From positions 2,429,400 through 2,493,399 of the forward strand of contig NZ_AP014648.1 of assembly GCF_000828475.1 (NCBI RefSeq): 64,000 bases of DNA, written 5' to 3'. The translations under genes were made by a program, and so were the position numbers. Source of the DNA: Methyloceanibacter caenitepidi (GTDB taxonomy: Bacteria; Pseudomonadota; Alphaproteobacteria; Rhizobiales; Methyloligellaceae). The notes beneath the pieces are model-generated. The model made no database searches. It saw nothing but the letters and a program-made list of their open reading frames with translations, and was not told the DNA's origin. Positions 1 to 6,829 of this stretch are shown piece by piece (positions within the stretch are counted from its first letter, which is position 1; the number at the start of each line of letters is the position of its first letter).

Positions 1-1
1 G

Positions 2-1729
2 GCGGGCATCTCCTTCGGCGGCGACGACCCGCGCCTGTTCGCGCCCCACTACCCCGGCGCGACGTCGAGTCTCAAGGAACTGCAGACCCCCGCGGTCGGC
101 GCCGGCGCGCTCAACTGGGTCCCGGAATACGACCAGATTATCCGGCGCATGCCCATTCTCGTGACCCTCGACGAAACGCTGTATCCGTCTTTTTCCGCCG
201 ATCTCCTGCGCGTCGCCCAAGGCGCGTCAACCTATGTGGTCAAGTCCTCCGGTGCGAGCGGCGAGAAGGCGTTTGGCGAGCAGACCGGCATCGTCAAGGT
301 CCGCGTCGGCGATTTCGAAATTCCGACCGATGCGAACGGCCAAATGTGGCTCCATTTTTCGCCGCAGACCCGCGATCGTTATCTGCCGGCCTGGAAGATT
401 TTGAACGGCGAGCTGGGTGAAGAAGCGATCGCAGGACGCATTCTTCTGATCGGCACCAGCGCCGCGGGCCTGCTGGACCTTCGTGCGACGCCGCTCGAAG
501 CCTCCGTACCCGGCGTCGAACTGCACGCTCAGGCCGTGGAACAGATCATCCGCGGCAGCTACCTCATGCGGCCCGATTTCGCGACGCCGGCGGAACTACT
601 TTATATCCTCGTCCTCGGCCTCCTGATCGCCGTGCTGATCTACCGGGCGGGGGCGCTGGGCAGCGCCGTGCTCGGCGGGCTCGCCGTGGCCTTCGTCGTC
701 TGGCTGTCGTGGCACGCGTTCAACAGCTGGGGATGGCTGGTCGATCCGGTCTATCCGACGATCGCCTTGACGGCGATCTATCTCACCGGCTCTTCGTTCG
801 TCTTCTTGCGGACCGAGCGCGAACGCAATCGCGTGCGCAACGCCTTCTCGCACTACATGGCTCCCGCTCTCGTGGAACGGTTGGCGGACGATCCCGAGCG
901 GCTCAAGCTCGGCGGCGAGAATCGCGACATGACGCTTCTCTTCAGCGACGTGCGCGGTTTCACCACAATATCGGAGGGGCTGGATGCGGAGGAGCTCACC
1001 CGCTTTCTCAACGACCTGTTCACGCCGCTCAGCAACATCATCCTCGACGAGGAAGGCACGATCGACAAATTCATGGGCGATGCGTTGATGGCCTTTTGGA
1101 ACGCGCCGCTCGACGACCCCTACCATCCCGGACACGCCTGCGCCGCCGCGCTTCGCATGGTCGACGAGATGGCAGTTCTGAACGAGCGCTGGCAGAAGGC
1201 CGCAGAGGAAGCCGGCCGTGAGTACAAGCCCGTGAAGCTCGGCATCGGCCTGAACACGGGCGTTTGCTGTGTCGGCAATCTCGGTTCGGAAACGCGGTTC
1301 GACTATTCGGTTATCGGCGACAACGTGAACGTCGCTTCCCGCCTCGAGGGCCAGTCGAAGACCTACGACCTCGTGATCATTGTCGGCGAGGAGACTGCGG
1401 CCCGCGCGCCGGATTTCGCCTTCCTCGAACTCGACCTGTTGAAGGTCAAAGGCAAGACAGCGGCCACCCGCATCTTCGGTCTGCTGGGCGACGACGCCGT
1501 CCGGCAGAGCGAGGCCTTCGGAGCTCTCGCCGCCAAGCACCAGGACTTCCTGTCCAAATACCGCGCTATGGACTGGGACGGCGCCAAGGTGCTACTGGCC
1601 GAATGCGAAACATTAGGCGGCGACAAGCTGAAAGGTCTTTACGCGCTCTATCGCCAGCGCATCGATGCATTTCGTATCACGCCCCCGCCGGACAATTGGG
1701 ACGGCAGCACGCAAGCAGCCTCCAAATAA
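2..1729 (+). CDS. CHASE2-domain class III adenylate cyclase (5' end outside window)
   Basis: This integral-membrane sensor probably makes cAMP from ATP. The reading frame is open back to base 2, and the translated upstream part still looks like CHASE2 (GALNWVPEYDQIIRRMP), so the internal ATG at 149 is not the start. An extracytoplasmic CHASE2 sensor is followed by three membrane helices (about nt 590-810) and a cyclase domain (about nt 926-1470). Both metal-binding Asp are present (FSDVRGF and KFMGDA), as are the purine-selecting Lys of DKFMGD and the transition-state Asn/Arg of NVASR. A Ser (DYSVIGD) stands where class IIIa enzymes have Asp, which resembles class IIIb cyclases, many of which respond to bicarbonate. 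ATP rather than GTP specificity is inferred from the Lys. The next gene begins about 60 bp downstream. Confidence 0.88.
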   Translation, partial: AGISFGGDDPRLFAPHYPGATSSLKELQTPAVGAGALNWVPEYDQIIRRMPILVTLDETLYPSFSADLLRVAQGASTYVVKSSGASGEKAFGEQTGIVKVRVGDFEIPTDANGQMWLHFSPQTRDRYLPAWKILNGELGEEAIAGRILLIGTSAAGLLDLRATPLEASVPGVELHAQAVEQIIRGSYLMRPDFATPAELLYILVLGLLIAVLIYRAGALGSAVLGGLAVAFVVWLSWHAFNSWGWLVDPVYPTIALTAIYLTGSSFVFLRTERERNRVRNAFSHYMAPALVERLADDPERLKLGGENRDMTLLFSDVRGFTTISEGLDAEELTRFLNDLFTPLSNIILDEEGTIDKFMGDALMAFWNAPLDDPYHPGHACAAALRMVDEMAVLNERWQKAAEEAGREYKPVKLGIGLNTGVCCVGNLGSETRFDYSVIGDNVNVASRLEGQSKTYDLVIIVGEETAARAPDFAFLELDLLKVKGKTAATRIFGLLGDDAVRQSEAFGALAAKHQDFLSKYRAMDWDGAKVLLAECETLGGDKLKGLYALYRQRIDAFRITPPPDNWDGSTQAASK

Positions 1730-1789
1730 TCCATTCGAGCAGCCCATCCACCAACGCAATACGCCAAACGCCTACAGTCGAACGTTCCT

Positions 1790-2182
1790 ATGCCTAAGAT
1801 TGCCATTCTTTGCCTCGCCGCGATCGCCATCTTGATGATCAAGCACACCGTGGCGGACTTCTTCCTTCAGACCCCATTCCAATACTGCAACAAGGGGACG
1901 TACGGTCATCCGGGCGGCTTCGTGCACGCGGGGATTCATGTGGCGCTGACGCCGCTCGCGTATCTGGTGCTGGCCCCCGCCTCCTTGATGCTGGCGCTCT
2001 GGATCGCGCTGGGAGAGTTCGTCGTCCACTACCATGTGGATTGGGCCAAGGAGCAGTTCGGCCGCCGTATGAAGGCGACGCCGCAAACGGCGAACTATTG
2101 GCATGCGCTCGGCCTCGACCAGCTCGCACACGGCCTGACCTATGTCGGCATCGTCGCCGCGCTCGTCTGGGCAATGAGCTGA
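1790..2182 (+). CDS. DUF3307 family small membrane protein
   Basis: A 130-residue hydrophobic protein of unknown function. An N-terminal helix is followed by a conserved-looking KHTVADFFLQTPFQ stretch, and His residues recur through the chain (HPGGFVHAGIHV, VVHYHVDWAK, YWHALGLDQLAHG). That HxxxDFxLQ plus His pattern is typical of DUF3307. Three or four membrane segments are likely. It follows the cyclase in the same direction, but the roughly 60-bp gap shows no obvious coupling. The ATG at 1790 sits just before the first membrane segment. The family assignment comes from pattern recognition and no activity is known. Confidence 0.7.
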   Translation: MPKIAILCLAAIAILMIKHTVADFFLQTPFQYCNKGTYGHPGGFVHAGIHVALTPLAYLVLAPASLMLALWIALGEFVVHYHVDWAKEQFGRRMKATPQTANYWHALGLDQLAHGLTYVGIVAALVWAMS

Positions 2183-2287
2183 ACCGCAGACAGAACGTGT
2201 GCCCTGGGCAGCGCCCGGCCCGAATTGTATGCTCAGCGCCGCGATTGGTTCGTCCAACGGTGAACGAGCGGCTGCGGGAGGCACATC

Positions 2288-2821
2288 GTGAATGTATTGA
2301 TCGTCTATGGAACCACCGAGGGGCAAACGCGGAAGGTTGCCGAGCACGTGGCCAAGGACGTGTCCGATCGGGGACATGCCGTCGAAGTGCTCGACGCCGC
2401 CGAGTCGGATGCCAACGTTGACCTCAATGACTTTCAAGCCGTAGTACTCGCGGGGTCCGTGCACCAAGAACAGCACCAAAAGGCCGTCAAAAACTTCGCG
2501 ACCGCCCACAGCGAACAGCTGGATTCGTGCCCGTCGGCGTTTATTTCGGTCAGCCTGTCGGCAGCGCTGGAGGAAACCCGGCCCGAGGCGCAACGCTACG
2601 TCGATCAGTTTGTCGAGCTGACCGGATGGCAGCCGCGCATGACTCTCCTATTGGGGGGAGCCGTCCGCTTTACCGAGTACGACTATTTCCAGGAGCAGGT
2701 CGTGAAGTTCATCGTCATGAAGCGGGGGCTGGCCGCCGAGGACGGAGGCGATCGCGAGTTCACGGACTGGAGCGCTTTGGACGCTTTCGTCGACGAGTTT
2801 CTCGAACGCGCCGCGAGCTAA
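2288..2821 (+). CDS. hemG: Flavodoxin-domain protein, HemG-like protoporphyrinogen dehydrogenase
   Basis: Probable FMN protein of the HemG type, which oxidises protoporphyrinogen IX to protoporphyrin IX using respiratory quinones during haem synthesis. The N-terminus carries the FMN phosphate loop (VYGTTEGQTRK). The middle (SAFISVSLSAALEETRPEAQRYV) and the C-terminal part (WQPRMTLLLGGAVRFTEYD ... FTDW) follow E. coli HemG closely, and the length (177 aa) also fits. The start is GTG at 2288 with a strong GGGAGG ribosome site just upstream. It runs convergently with the cytochrome c gene, overlapping it by four bases. A general flavodoxin-like quinone reductase is the main alternative. Confidence 0.7.
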   Translation: MNVLIVYGTTEGQTRKVAEHVAKDVSDRGHAVEVLDAAESDANVDLNDFQAVVLAGSVHQEQHQKAVKNFATAHSEQLDSCPSAFISVSLSAALEETRPEAQRYVDQFVELTGWQPRMTLLLGGAVRFTEYDYFQEQVVKFIVMKRGLAAEDGGDREFTDWSALDAFVDEFLERAAS

Positions 2822-3111
2822 CGGTCGCTGGCGAAGTGGTAGAACTCGTCGTTCAAATATTTGAGCAGGTCCCGCGTTTCGTCCGCCGAAAACTCGGCGT
2901 TCGCCATATGACTGCAGCTGGATAGTTGCTCCCTCAACTGATCCAGAGACTGAACGGCGCGGTCCGAGCGCGAGAGAACGCTCGTGTCGTGGCACTCCGT
3001 GCAATGCGTGTCGTACAGACGCTTTCCGTTGGCGCTGTCGCCCGGTAGCGATGAGGCTTGCGCCATTGACACGAGCAGCATTGACGCCAACACGCTCAGA
3101 AAGCTTTTCAT
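2818..3111 (-). CDS. Small periplasmic monohaem c-type cytochrome
   Basis: A 97-residue secreted protein. A signal peptide (MKSFLSVLASMLLVSMAQAS) is followed by a single haem-binding CTECH site near residue 37, then a short helical tail ending in DLLKYLNDEFYHF. It resembles small class I cytochromes acting as periplasmic electron carriers. The sixth ligand is probably the Met of SCSHMAN, though a His lies next to it. A strong GGAGG ribosome site precedes the ATG. It overlaps the 3' end of the HemG-like gene on the other strand by four bases. Its partner enzyme cannot be read from the context. Confidence 0.8.
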   Translation of the reverse strand: MKSFLSVLASMLLVSMAQASSLPGDSANGKRLYDTHCTECHDTSVLSRSDRAVQSLDQLREQLSSCSHMANAEFSADETRDLLKYLNDEFYHFASDR

Positions 3112-3249
3112 CGCTTACCTCCAGGGTTCTTGTGCAAGCCCCCAATCGGCTTCCCGCTGCGCAGGCCGAACGATGCGGCCTAAGGGCGTGACCAAGACCT
3201 GACCGGAATGCCTTGCGCGGAAAGTCGAGGCGCCTATGCCGGCGTAGAC

Positions 3250-3516
3250 TTACCAGCCGCGCCAATAGCGGCGCGATTGCCGTCTGAGATACCGCTTGGG
3301 CACACGGTAGACGGTGTACCCTTGCGGATAGTCGTTGCCGTCCCTGAATCGCGGATGCTCGTTCCGGTATTGGAGATAGTCGTCACTATGCCGGGGATAT
3401 ACGTAGCCATAGGGCGGTCCGACATAGACTCGGACCCGCCCCGCCGACGCCGTGGCCGGCACAAGCGCCGTCAGGAAGAGCGCGGCGCCTGCAATGAGTA
3501 GTGGTGATTTTGTCAT
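3250..3516 (-). CDS. Small secreted Tyr/Arg-rich hypothetical protein
   Basis: An 88-residue protein with a clear signal peptide (MTKSPLLIAGAALFLTALVP, then an ATASA cleavage site). The mature part of about 63 residues is rich in Tyr, Arg and Pro (VYVGPPYGYVYPRHSDD) and ends in a very basic stretch (KRYLRRQSRRYWRGW). The frame could begin 18 codons earlier, but the Met at 3516 starts a canonical signal sequence. No domain is recognised. The basic aromatic tail suggests an envelope or periplasmic role, which is inference only. Confidence 0.6.
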   Translation of the reverse strand: MTKSPLLIAGAALFLTALVPATASAGRVRVYVGPPYGYVYPRHSDDYLQYRNEHPRFRDGNDYPQGYTVYRVPKRYLRRQSRRYWRGW

Positions 3517-3711
3517 CGCGTTGCTCCGATCGCAAAGACAGAGCATCTCACTGGCATCACAGACTGTCAAAGCAACCGGCTTTGGGGCCGGTTTTCAGGC
3601 GCTAGCGCTGCATCCCAAAGCACACCCTTGACTTCCTGCGGCATTGCGGGCTTCACGGTAGTATCTTCAACTCTACCGCCGCTCGGCTCAACCGCTCGGG
3701 AGAGTTCCATT

Positions 3712-4527
3712 GTGACGACACGCGGACTCAGACCGTTGATACGTTCCATCGCCGACAATCCACGTCCGAGCATACAGGACGCCCTGCTCCTCGCCAGCGT
3801 CTTGCTCGTGGGGGCACTGCTCGCGCTACAATACAACCTCTTCTGGTTCAGCGCCGAGCTTTCCGACCCCCAGCGCAAGATCTCGCTTGCCGAGGCAATG
3901 GCGCTCACCGTCCTGCTCGCTTTGTGCATTTGTGCCTTCGCTGTCCGGCGGCTGCGCGAGGTCAGGTATGACACGGCGCGCCGTGCCGTGACGCGATCTC
4001 AGATGCGGCAGCTGCGCACGCTTGCATCCCATGACTCCCTGACGGGGCTCGCAAATCGCCGCGAGTTGGATTCGGCTCTGGCGGCGGCGATCGCCTCCGC
4101 GGCCAGTGGACGGAGGCACGCGTTTTTCATGATCGATTTGAACGGCTTCAAACGCATCAACGATGTTTATGGGCACGCCATGGGAGACCGCGTCCTGCAA
4201 GCCGTCGCCGGGCGATTTCAGTCCGCGGCCCGGCCAAGCGATCTGCTGGCGCGGCTCGGCGGCGACGAATTCGCCCTCCTCTCCTATGATGTCGATCACG
4301 ACACCGCCCGCGCCATTGGTCAGCGCATGATGGCCACGCTGGACAGCGAGATTCGGGTCGGCGGACGCTCCCACGAGCCCAGCGCCTCGATCGGCGTGGC
4401 GCTCATTCCCCAAAATGGCTCCACGCCGGAGGAGATTATCCATCACGCCGATATCGCGATGTACCGGGCGAAAGGCGAAGACAAGACCGCGCTCGTGTTC
4501 TTCGAACCGCCGGCCGCGATTAGCTGA
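3712..4527 (+). CDS. Membrane-anchored GGDEF diguanylate cyclase
   Basis: Predicted to make cyclic di-GMP from two GTP. Two N-terminal membrane helices (ALLLASVLLVGALLAL and ALTVLLALCICAFAV) lead into a GGDEF domain starting at HDSLTGLANRREL. The active-site loop is an intact GGDEF, and an inhibitory I-site RxxD (RPSD) lies exactly five residues before it, so product feedback is expected. There is no separate sensor domain beyond the membrane anchor. The frame opens earlier (ATG at 3628), but GTG at 3712 has a GGGAGAG ribosome site at good spacing and gives a normal N-terminus. It converges with the SulP gene. Confidence 0.85.
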   Translation: MTTRGLRPLIRSIADNPRPSIQDALLLASVLLVGALLALQYNLFWFSAELSDPQRKISLAEAMALTVLLALCICAFAVRRLREVRYDTARRAVTRSQMRQLRTLASHDSLTGLANRRELDSALAAAIASAASGRRHAFFMIDLNGFKRINDVYGHAMGDRVLQAVAGRFQSAARPSDLLARLGGDEFALLSYDVDHDTARAIGQRMMATLDSEIRVGGRSHEPSASIGVALIPQNGSTPEEIIHHADIAMYRAKGEDKTALVFFEPPAAIS

Positions 4528-4603
4528 CCGGCCGCCGGCGCCGTTTTGAGCGCGCGGACAGGTGCCCATGGTCCGGCGCGGCGGCTGTTGGCAAGCTCCA
4601 AGC

Positions 4604-6829
4604 CTAATGCAGAGCGGATATCTCGCGGTTGGCGAAATCGAGCCGGTCGGACAAGAGCCGGATAATGAGCTTGTGCAGAGACGCCGCTGCACCCGGATCT
4701 TCGTCCTGCATCTTGTCGAAGGACTCGCGGGTCAGGATGTAAACGACGCTCGCGCTCTCCGCGACCACGTTCGCGCCGCGCGGCACGTCGCGGTAGAAAC
4801 CCATTTCGCCGACGACCGTATGACCCAGCATACGCCGTAGACGGATGGACCGCCCGTATTCGCCTTCAATCGTGATCGCGACGCACCCTGATGCCTGGAA
4901 CACGACGGAGTCCGACGGCTCCCCCTGCCGGAAGAGAACGGCGCCACTATCCAACTCACGCCGGGTCATATAGGGCTCGACCCGCTCGAAGGTGATATCC
5001 CCACCGAGTTCGTTCTGCAGCCAGGTCTCGAAGGTGTGCGAGGATGCTTCGCCGACCTCGTGATACAGCAACACCATGTCCTCGCACCATTCGACCGCGT
5101 CGTTGCGGGTCGGGAACGCCTGATGCGGCCGGTCCGTACCGAAAAATCCAGCGCCCAGGAACGCGGCGTGCATGGAATCGCTCAGCCCACTGAAGACGAG
5201 CGTGACGTCACGCTCCTCGCAATAGTTGCGCAGCTTGACGAGGCTCAAGACGGCCGACGTGTCCAGACCCTGCACTGCGCTGAAGTCGAGCACGATATAG
5301 CCGACCGGTTTCTCTTTCTGCTCCTCGATCTCGCGCCGGATCCGCTCGAAGAGCCCGTTCGAGGATCCGAAGAAGATGAAGCCGGACAGCCAGAACACGT
5401 GGACGCGCTTGCCTTCCTCCTGGAGGAGGCGCGCTTGCTCCGGCGAACGGTCCACGCTGCTAGACAGCTCGTAGCGGGTCAGGTGACGGCGGATCACGCC
5501 GATCCGGCTGTATGAGAGCGCGAACAGCAGGCAGGCGCCGATGACGCCCAGCACCACGCCCACCAGATAGCCGAAATAGAGAATGACGAGCGCAATCGCG
5601 ATGGCGAGCGCAAGGTCCGTGCGCGACCGCTGCGCCGGCGAATGCACGAGCGCTTCGATCAGAATCATCGTGCCGAGATAGGCCAGCATGCCGCCCAGGA
5701 TCGCCTTGGGTACGAAGCTGCCCACATCGGCGCCGGCGAACAGCACCAAGCCGCACACGACCGCAACCGACACACCGCTGATCCGCGTCACCGCGCCCGC
5801 CTGTTGCAGCAGCAGGCTGTTGTTGAGCGACAGATTGCCGGCCACGCCGCCGAGCACGGAAGCCAGCACATTGGCGAGCCCGTTGGTGCGAAACTCCTTG
5901 TCGAGATCGGCGGATTTCTGCCTGGCGACTTCGAGGCTCGAAACGTCGAGCAGCATCGATATCGCCGTCACGCCGCAGACGGCGCCGATTTCCGCACTGC
6001 TCAGCGCCATGACGCCCCAATCGATATCGTGGGTCGACAGAGCGCCGATGGGCCACCAGAGCTGCAAGGCGCCGACGGCCGCCAGATACCAGTCCGCCTG
6101 GGTGTCAGGGTCGGCCACGAACCACATCAGAATGGCATTCAACACGACAAGGAAAACGACGAAGGCGATGGGCAGCGTCAGATAGTCGTCCATCCAGCGC
6201 TTGAGCAGGACGATGAAGAAGGCGAAGGCGAGCCCCACGGCGATCTGCGGCGCGAAGCGCATATCCGCCATGACAGCCCAGCTCGACGGCGACAGAGTGA
6301 GGTTGCTGCCGGTGATGACTTCGACGCCGCCGGTGATGAGCAATAACCCCGATGCGGCCAAGAAGCCGCCGATCACCGGAAACGGAACGAAGCGCAGCCA
6401 CTGACCGAGCTTCAGCCCGCCGAGCCCGAACAACACGGCGCCGGTGAGAAACGTGCTGACCGTGATGGCGACCATTACGTTGATGATCATCGTTTCGGTG
6501 TCCGCGCCCTTCGCGGCGAGCCCCGCGGCCACCGTGGTTGCCAACACGCTCATAACGGCGACGGCGGGCGTATCGGGCCCCGCATCGGCGGGAACGAGCG
6601 TCGTGGTCAGGGACACGACGACGCCGGTCACCATAGTGCCCATGATGAGCGCGGCCAGTCCGAGCGGGAATCCGGCGGCGATAGAGCCTTGGAAAATTAG
6701 GGCGCTGAACGAGATGCAATAGGCGATGTTGACGATCGCCGAGATCGTCCCCGCCATGGCGTCGCGCCCGAGCGTTGCGACGTCAATGTTCTGCGGGCGC
6801 TTGGGCGCCAAATTTTCCAGTAAAGACAA
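4604..6829 (-). CDS. SulP anion transporter fused to STAS and cyclic-nucleotide-binding domains
   Basis: A 741-residue inner-membrane transporter of the SulP/SLC26 family, which moves sulfate, bicarbonate or other anions. Residues 1 to about 430 form the membrane part, about 455-560 a STAS domain (GYIVLDFSAVQGLDTSAVLSL), and about 610-735 a cyclic-nucleotide-binding domain. The phosphate-binding cassette looks intact, with Glu and Arg in GEMGFYRDVPRGANVV, so cAMP or cGMP binding is plausible. The start reads as TTG at 6829, since an in-frame stop lies just upstream and no ATG or GTG falls between. The ribosome site is poor, so the start is uncertain. The substrate cannot be told from sequence. 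A cAMP-type cyclase lies about 2.9 kb away. Confidence 0.88.
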   Translation of the reverse strand: MSLLENLAPKRPQNIDVATLGRDAMAGTISAIVNIAYCISFSALIFQGSIAAGFPLGLAALIMGTMVTGVVVSLTTTLVPADAGPDTPAVAVMSVLATTVAAGLAAKGADTETMIINVMVAITVSTFLTGAVLFGLGGLKLGQWLRFVPFPVIGGFLAASGLLLITGGVEVITGSNLTLSPSSWAVMADMRFAPQIAVGLAFAFFIVLLKRWMDDYLTLPIAFVVFLVVLNAILMWFVADPDTQADWYLAAVGALQLWWPIGALSTHDIDWGVMALSSAEIGAVCGVTAISMLLDVSSLEVARQKSADLDKEFRTNGLANVLASVLGGVAGNLSLNNSLLLQQAGAVTRISGVSVAVVCGLVLFAGADVGSFVPKAILGGMLAYLGTMILIEALVHSPAQRSRTDLALAIAIALVILYFGYLVGVVLGVIGACLLFALSYSRIGVIRRHLTRYELSSSVDRSPEQARLLQEEGKRVHVFWLSGFIFFGSSNGLFERIRREIEEQKEKPVGYIVLDFSAVQGLDTSAVLSLVKLRNYCEERDVTLVFSGLSDSMHAAFLGAGFFGTDRPHQAFPTRNDAVEWCEDMVLLYHEVGEASSHTFETWLQNELGGDITFERVEPYMTRRELDSGAVLFRQGEPSDSVVFQASGCVAITIEGEYGRSIRLRRMLGHTVVGEMGFYRDVPRGANVVAESASVVYILTRESFDKMQDEDPGAAASLHKLIIRLLSDRLDFANREISALH

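Follow-up and report, generated by a model that had tools for sequence, protein, structure and literature searches.

Does a class III nucleotide cyclase that lies close to a SulP transporter with a cyclic nucleotide-binding domain work together with it, and which genes would belong to such a circuit? The question is raised by a stretch of 64,000 nucleotides of the Methyloceanibacter caenitepidi genome (the window; G000:C1:2429400-2493399, in a genome of a single contig of 3.42 Mb), for which a preliminary description had proposed a loop in which anion or CO2 status sets cyclic AMP (cAMP) and cAMP gates transport. When related loci were compared, a third gene came to the fore that this description had missed. 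It encodes DUF3307, a small membrane protein next to the cyclase, which is a more widely kept neighbour than the cyclase-SulP pair and the better lead. The features on which the argument rests are the following, ORF denoting open reading frame.

1..1729 (ORF 2-1729), + strand: CHASE2-transmembrane-class III nucleotide cyclase, last 575 of 738 aa (Pfam CHASE2, Guanylate_cyc)
917..1462, + strand: cyclase catalytic domain, about residues 469-650 (alignments including solved cyclases; residue check)
947-949, 1067-1069, 1079-1081 and 1307-1309, + strand: cyclase codons of Asp479, Lys519, Asp523 and Ser599, respectively
1790..2182, + strand: DUF3307, 130-aa helical membrane protein with conserved His/Asp/Glu (Pfam, alignment, structure model, neighbourhoods)
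4604..6829, - strand: SulP (SLC26-type) transporter with STAS and C-terminal cNMP-binding domain, 741 aa, TTG start (Pfam, structure model, fold search)
4772..4810, - strand: phosphate-binding cassette of the cyclic nucleotide-binding domain (cNBD), residues 674-686 GEMGFYRDVPRGA (alignment of 61 rows)

DUF3307 is encoded downstream of the cyclase on the same strand and SulP is convergent to both, the cyclase and SulP being about 2.9 kb apart and in different operons, as had been described correctly before. The window DUF3307 belongs to its Pfam family (PF11750) with 32.4 bits against a cut-off of 23. A search for its subfamily in 397 genomes of the order Hyphomicrobiales gave 93 places in 90 genomes, from which 88 copies were classified; the weak hits in G171, G299 and G387 were omitted, as were two fragments of G284 at contig ends, and five copies (G371, G321, G293, G244, G383) were classed from coordinates alone. 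With distances taken between stop-to-stop ORFs, 54 of the 88 copies, in 19 of 30 genera, have a gene for a class III cyclase or a cNBD protein no more than 400 bp away, and 61 copies have one within 3 kb. Among the 54, a cyclase stands beside 31 and a cNBD gene also beside 31 (16 of these SulP-cNBD), the leading arrangements being a same-strand CHASE2 cyclase (23), a convergent SulP-cNBD gene (16) and convergent cNBD proteins (14, of which six were checked by Pfam and all six matched). In a like-for-like control on 60 DUF3307-centred loci (L203-L262) such neighbours were seen for DUF3307 in 26 of 60 cases and for control ORFs, at least 1.5 kb from DUF3307 in the same loci, in 24 of 176 (odds ratio 4.8, p 5e-6), with the caveat that some control ORFs are surely not genes and that the loci are cyclase-rich. 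The figure of 26 is low because these loci omit most places already found beside SulP or a cyclase. An earlier, looser control gave 18/171, with ORFs counted from start codons and so not measured alike.

The partners of DUF3307 are varied. They include POPDC proteins in L236 and L237 (above the Pfam cut-off), a Crp-type regulator in L227, non-CHASE2 cyclases in L231 and L207, and small cNBD proteins in L212, L207, L154, L091 and L087 (in L087 beside the cyclase only), and in the families f3 and f16 a cyclase accompanies DUF3307 with no adjoining SulP. On a DUF3307 tree of 66 rows (those of at least 85 bits, with few columns, many forks open and a stray long branch for the badly trimmed G359) the eight partner classes need 22 changes against a shuffled mean of 40.9, and therefore partners are partly inherited and have repeatedly been gained or lost. 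Two loci types stood out in passing. Membrane cNBD proteins are convergent with DUF3307 in L235-L238 (the L238 protein was outside the Pfam scan), with CHASE2 cyclases within 3 kb in L235-L237, and a class III cyclase with a seemingly membrane-bound N-terminal region and a 2Fe-2S ferredoxin domain (L207:5852-7582, - strand) adjoins DUF3307 and a small cNBD gene.

Apart from Methyloceanibacter-like genomes, the cyclase-SulP pair itself occurs in one other genus only. Eleven named loci represent Methyloceanibacter and its close relatives. The cyclase is found beside SulP in nine of them, the contigs of L025 and L031 ending first, while DUF3307 is present in ten (not L031), glpK in nine and aat in seven, and where all are present the gene order is glpK-aat-SulP> <DUF3307-cyclase. 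Since glpK and aat also stay nearby, the linkage in these loci is partly plain synteny. The 2.9-kb gap of the window is peculiar to its lineage, as eight of the nine named relatives with both genes have room for DUF3307 alone between them; in the ninth, L028, cyclase and SulP are separated by an additional 0.9 kb. Both genomes of g3, another genus of this family, have the two genes linked, with the matches only 26-37 bp apart, but in g2 and g4, which also belong to it, the cyclase is missing from all seven loci and the pair is linked in none; conservation across relatives, by which the preliminary description had proposed to judge the pair, thus holds for the named loci and g3 and fails for g2 and g4. 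DUF3307 is present in all seven of the latter, and in the families f10, f32, f39 and f47 it lies beside SulP-cNBD in four of four loci. In all of these 11 next-closest loci outside g1 and g3 (L102-L112) SulP and DUF3307 are convergent neighbours, and in L109 another class III cyclase lies about 2.4 kb beyond. The parts are modular, with SulP and DUF3307 together in some lineages, the cyclase and DUF3307 in others and all three in the window genus. Upstream of SulP, L029, L031 and L100 carry two or more tandem aat-like stretches.

At the level of whole genomes, a STAS-cNBD profile (E 1e-25 or better) matched in 59 of the 397 genomes of the order. An A2-type (CHASE2) cyclase, matched at E 1e-60 or better, is present in 55 of these 59 genomes versus 138 of 338 others, and by genus in 23 of 27 with SulP-cNBD versus 63 of 114 (Fisher p 0.004), a co-occurrence confounded by ancestry and genome size.

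The whole cyclase gene (L036:6913-9129, 738 aa) starts 488 bp before the window, so that the ORF start at window base 2 is the window edge and not the true gene start. Pfam recognises CHASE2 (105.8 bits) and Guanylate_cyc (76.6 bits), and together with hydrophobic segments at residues 5-23, 358-376 and 382-400 this is the architecture of a CHASE2 receptor cyclase. Class III cyclases are marked by two metal-binding Asp plus the Lys, Asn and Arg of the active site. According to alignment and residue check all of them are there (D479, K519, D523, N606, R610), and by these residues and the Pfam matches the gene is assigned to the class III nucleotide cyclases. The preliminary description had also noticed a Ser in place of the class IIIa Asp, and rightly so, as residue 599 is Ser; when aligned with solved enzymes, this Ser occupies the position of Thr in the adenylate cyclase 1wc1, which we take to be CyaC, and in CyaB (3r5g). 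The same residue is found in 42 of 47 class III cyclase ORFs with readable motifs, Thr occurring in three and Asp in two (loci L001-L006, L070-L154 and L203-L262; 12 further ORFs were unfit for the motif search and are uncounted, the window cyclase entered twice as L003 and L071, and 30 loci are best matches to the window cyclase itself). The majority of the Ser cyclases belong to genomes other than those of g1 and g3 and have no adjoining SulP. Judged from these motifs, Ser is a general trait of the CHASE2 cyclase group with or without a nearby SulP, and it says little on bicarbonate. The residue called predictive of a bicarbonate response is Thr in the available part of PMC3383692, and our class IIIb literature searches found no statement on Ser.

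The closest described systems to this cyclase are CyaD1, CyaD2 and CyaK of Sinorhizobium meliloti, which likewise join a CHASE2 sensor to a class III cyclase. According to the text available from PMC13001267, CHASE2 cyclases of this species produce cAMP in response to a signal that an outer-membrane protein passes on, and the known output is the Crp-family regulator Clr, whereas the window cyclase is adjoined by a transporter with its own cNBD plus DUF3307. One relative in a metagenome assembly has a cyclase with an in-frame stop close to the C-terminus (L028:13558-15771, - strand).

For the transporter, Pfam finds Sulfate_transp (111.4 bits), STAS (52.0) and cNMP_binding (56.4) in the order SulP, STAS, cNMP-binding, and the closest named genes are 92-96% identical over 741 aa (L025-L028; Methyloceanibacter or Hyphomicrobiaceae bacterium). 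An AlphaFold 2 (AF2) model built from 26 rows (predicted local distance difference test (pLDDT) 83.5, predicted template modelling score 0.62) matches SLC26 structures with a Foldseek best E of 4.8e-19, and an SLC26/SulP fold is predicted accordingly by the model. BicA (Z 37.2, root-mean-square deviation (rmsd) 3.1, 371 aligned) and SLC26Dg (Z 36.5, rmsd 3.5, 371 aligned) fit it equally well, and therefore the fold is no pointer to bicarbonate. The cassette of cNBDs is built from a Gly-Glu and an Arg-x-Ala motif, in which Glu and Arg hold the ribose and phosphate in known domains. That the transporter ends in such a domain with the cassette intact, as claimed before, is confirmed by Pfam and by an alignment of 61 distinct rows (54 clusters at 90% identity), where G674, E675, R684 and A686 are invariant in all 61 and several columns around them vary. 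We regard this alignment as good evidence that the putative nucleotide-type ligand site is under selection.

A substrate could not be derived from the sequence. In the column of the first transmembrane segment (TM1) into which Asp223 of yeast Vsb1 would presumably fall, going by its published description, two of the three other SulPs of the genome have Gln or Glu and the third has Leu; the window SulP has Tyr, and the 61 aligned SulP-cNBD proteins are variable (Tyr in 23, Phe in 14, Thr in 9 and other residues in the rest), so that an assignment from this column was rejected. As further observations on these transporters, L123 and L129 carry SulP-cNBD genes in tandem, and in L105 (7269-7676), L108 (7154-7549) and L154 (6816-7226) a small cNBD gene lies directly upstream of SulP-cNBD on the same strand, its protein having an intact cassette GEMALIDG.PR.A.

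As far as the available text of PMC13160679 goes, a cNBD-type domain in a transporter has been reported solely for LtnT of Synechococcus elongatus besides Vsb1. LtnT, compared here by description only, is a SulP-family nitrate carrier with a C-terminal cNMP-binding-type domain, and no cyclase or DUF3307 partner is mentioned for it in that text. Vsb1 (YGR125w), a yeast vacuolar SulP-family transporter of cationic amino acids, shares with the window protein the SulP and STAS parts and a C-terminal jelly-roll domain, which in Vsb1 is essential for function, and it has Asp223 in the binding site (PMC13160679, in part), the window SulP having Tyr in the TM1 column. For SulP-type proteins of Aspergillus, a figure legend in PMC5541321, also available in part, indicates a domain of the cyclic nucleotide-binding kind, and PMC7440668 names none of the five domains looked for. 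As a working model for gating we use SLC9C1, the sperm Na+/H+ exchanger, described in the accessible part of PMC6052114 as a solute carrier gated by its cyclic nucleotide domain; it belongs to another transporter family and differs in having a voltage sensor, which is not seen in the window SulP.

Starting from the observed domain content, the intact active-site and cassette residues and the gene association, we are on balance inclined to believe that the locus encodes a membrane cAMP circuit, in which the CHASE2 cyclase makes cAMP, SulP is gated by the cyclic nucleotide through its cNBD and DUF3307 acts in the same circuit. A periplasmic signal perceived at CHASE2 would set the activity of the cyclase, the active site of which is intact and the product of which is presumably cAMP rather than cGMP. 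The cAMP would reach the cNBD of the nearby SulP, bind there, alter gating and in this way switch the transport of its putative solute, and DUF3307 might tune or end the signal at the membrane, either as a regulator or as a turnover factor. If this is true, the locus would represent a bacterial SulP carrier under cyclic nucleotide control with a candidate cyclase next door, and an orphan membrane family of bacteria and phages, for which a literature search listed a single paper, would be tied to cyclic nucleotide signalling. Further effort is best spent on the recurrent association of DUF3307.

Several observations weigh against this circuit. The cyclase and DUF3307 on the one side and SulP on the other are convergent and have no common promoter, and the genome encodes six class III cyclases and 13 cNBDs, so cAMP from elsewhere could serve. 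In g3 the cyclase and SulP are both present and DUF3307 was not found, nor was it seen in any of the 39 deeper SulP-cNBD loci (L113-L152 except L143, some of them truncated by contig ends); a CHASE2 cyclase occurs in just three of these 39 (L140-L142, all from one genus), about 8 kb off. DUF3307 in turn has no cyclase or cNBD gene within 400 bp in 34 of its 88 copies, among them all copies of g56 (0/6 with such a neighbour), g25 (0/4) and g38 (0/10, weak members), and the cyclase counted for L216 (G011) is an 82-aa piece with 20.1 bits, below the Pfam cut-off of 21.9.

An alternative explanation is that the genes are coincidental neighbours, SulP answering a general cAMP pool or other cyclases, the CHASE2 cyclase serving Crp-type regulators and their proximity being inherited synteny. 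The persistence of glpK and aat in the named loci and the lack of linkage in g2 and g4 are in line with it, and domain hits of a second class III cyclase and an unrelated SulP lie 4.1 kb apart in the same genome, therefore closeness in one genome is weak evidence. What plain synteny does not explain is the repeated presence of DUF3307 beside cyclases and cNBD genes with varied partners; the spacing of the pair in g3 and the enrichment of A2-type cyclases in SulP-cNBD genera, confounded as it is, also speak against coincidence, which we consider rather unlikely without dismissing it. A different objection concerns the cNBD of SulP, which could be a structural (dimerization) domain that binds nothing. 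This has been proposed for the comparable RmlC-like domain of Vsb1, essential for transport, the authors of which think ligand binding unlikely according to the text available (PMC13160679), and it too counts against the proposed circuit. For the bacterial proteins we regard it as improbable, since Glu675 and Arg684, the ribose and phosphate positions, do not vary in any of the 61 rows whereas several surrounding residues do.

Of the loop proposed in the preliminary description, the cAMP link remains plausible, given the invariant cassette and the DUF3307 and small cNBD genes that accompany class III cyclases, and the bicarbonate part is not supported. It would require that bicarbonate or CO2 activates a IIIb-like cyclase and that cAMP gates a bicarbonate-carrying SulP, for which the position of Ser599 on the Thr of solved cyclases and the resemblance of the SulP fold to BicA could be quoted. 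As Ser599 does not track a SulP neighbour, this reading was dropped as a sequence inference; SLC26Dg fits the model as well as BicA, the two named transporters with such a domain carry nitrate and cationic amino acids (PMC13160679, in part), and bicarbonate control is not general even in soluble adenylyl cyclases, as stated in the accessible part of PMC12867704. Taken together, we hold it to be very improbable.

To return to DUF3307 in the proposed membrane circuit, the AF2 model of the 130-aa protein is all helical with a pLDDT of 95.9. Invariant in 15 of 15 rows are K18, H19, D23, Q27, Q31, K35, H40 and H46 as well as E76, H80, D84, K87, D110, Q111, H114 and Y118, often spaced four apart on a helix, a pattern that hints at a putative metal-binding or catalytic site close to one face of the membrane. 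A comparison with solved folds gave no clear relative (Foldseek best E 0.64; the best Z of 7.7 is helical-bundle background), and dolichyl-phosphate-mannose synthase, diacylglycerol kinase, the ATP synthase a-subunit and FAT-type bundles were rejected as its fold, as they reached background Z only.

In a sample of the phylum PF11750 occurs in 18 of 249 genomes, and outside the order a SatD-like gene adjoins DUF3307 in 6 of 12 loci (L155-L160, with flanks of about 1.5 kb), which belong to f60 of the class and f71, f82 and f90 of the phylum. The Pfam SatD family (PF16264) matched one of four scanned proteins (L157, 33.3 bits), and the remaining ones align with L157. Their profile matches the class III cyclase Ma1120 (4wp8; E 2.6e-6, residues 15-109), and in hhalign SatD and cyclases reach a probability of 90.5 and an E of 1.4e-6. 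The first and the second Asp motif coincide in this comparison, and D21 and D61 are the invariant metal-type positions of SatD. By this sequence comparison the SatD-like proteins look like relatives of class III cyclases; among the papers listed by a literature search for SatD with cyclase, none concerned the bacterial SatD, judging by title. The SatD-DUF3307 pairs thus resemble the window locus in having DUF3307 beside a class III cyclase-like domain; they differ from the window cyclase by a C-terminal helix-turn-helix-like region. The family extends to phages, with DUF3307 present in 199 of 50,697 records (Salmonella, Escherichia, Aeromonas, Erwinia, Caulobacter and others), for example in NC_048048.2 at 229872-230213, and its neighbours in two records, hypothetical proteins and general phage genes, were uninformative. 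As a bold idea, which we ourselves rate as a long shot, DUF3307 might be a membrane-embedded metalloenzyme that degrades cyclic nucleotides or controls them in some other way. It would then be a hitherto unrecognised partner of class III cyclases, with SatD counted among them as a disguised cyclase-fold family; bacteria would use it to shape cAMP signals that act locally at the membrane on cNBD effectors (SulP-cNBD and POPDC proteins, for example), and many phages would carry it to silence such signals.

The remaining genes between DUF3307 and SulP are outside the module.

2288..4527, no strand assigned: lineage-specific insert between DUF3307 and SulP (Pfam; tblastn of relatives), with a flavodoxin (+), a cytochrome c-like ORF (-), a small ORF (-) and a GGDEF cyclase (+)

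These genes had no tblastn match above 40 aa in 11 named relatives, and the flavodoxin/cytochrome c-like/GGDEF insert is common to the window species and G168 (L153). The GGDEF gene (3628-4527) was considered as a link to cyclic di-GMP and rejected as a part of the module; it is without match in the 11 relatives and present in the near lineage L153.

An inventory of the genome gave six class III cyclases, four SulPs (one of which gave two rows) and 13 cNBDs, 12 of them over the cut-off. Elsewhere in it (L037, G000:C1:1352380-1358198), a second class III cyclase, a Crp/Fnr-like cNBD protein, a metallo-beta-lactamase-type protein and a STAS-bearing SulP lie within 6 kb, the metallo-beta-lactamase-type label and the STAS of this SulP being assigned by eye.

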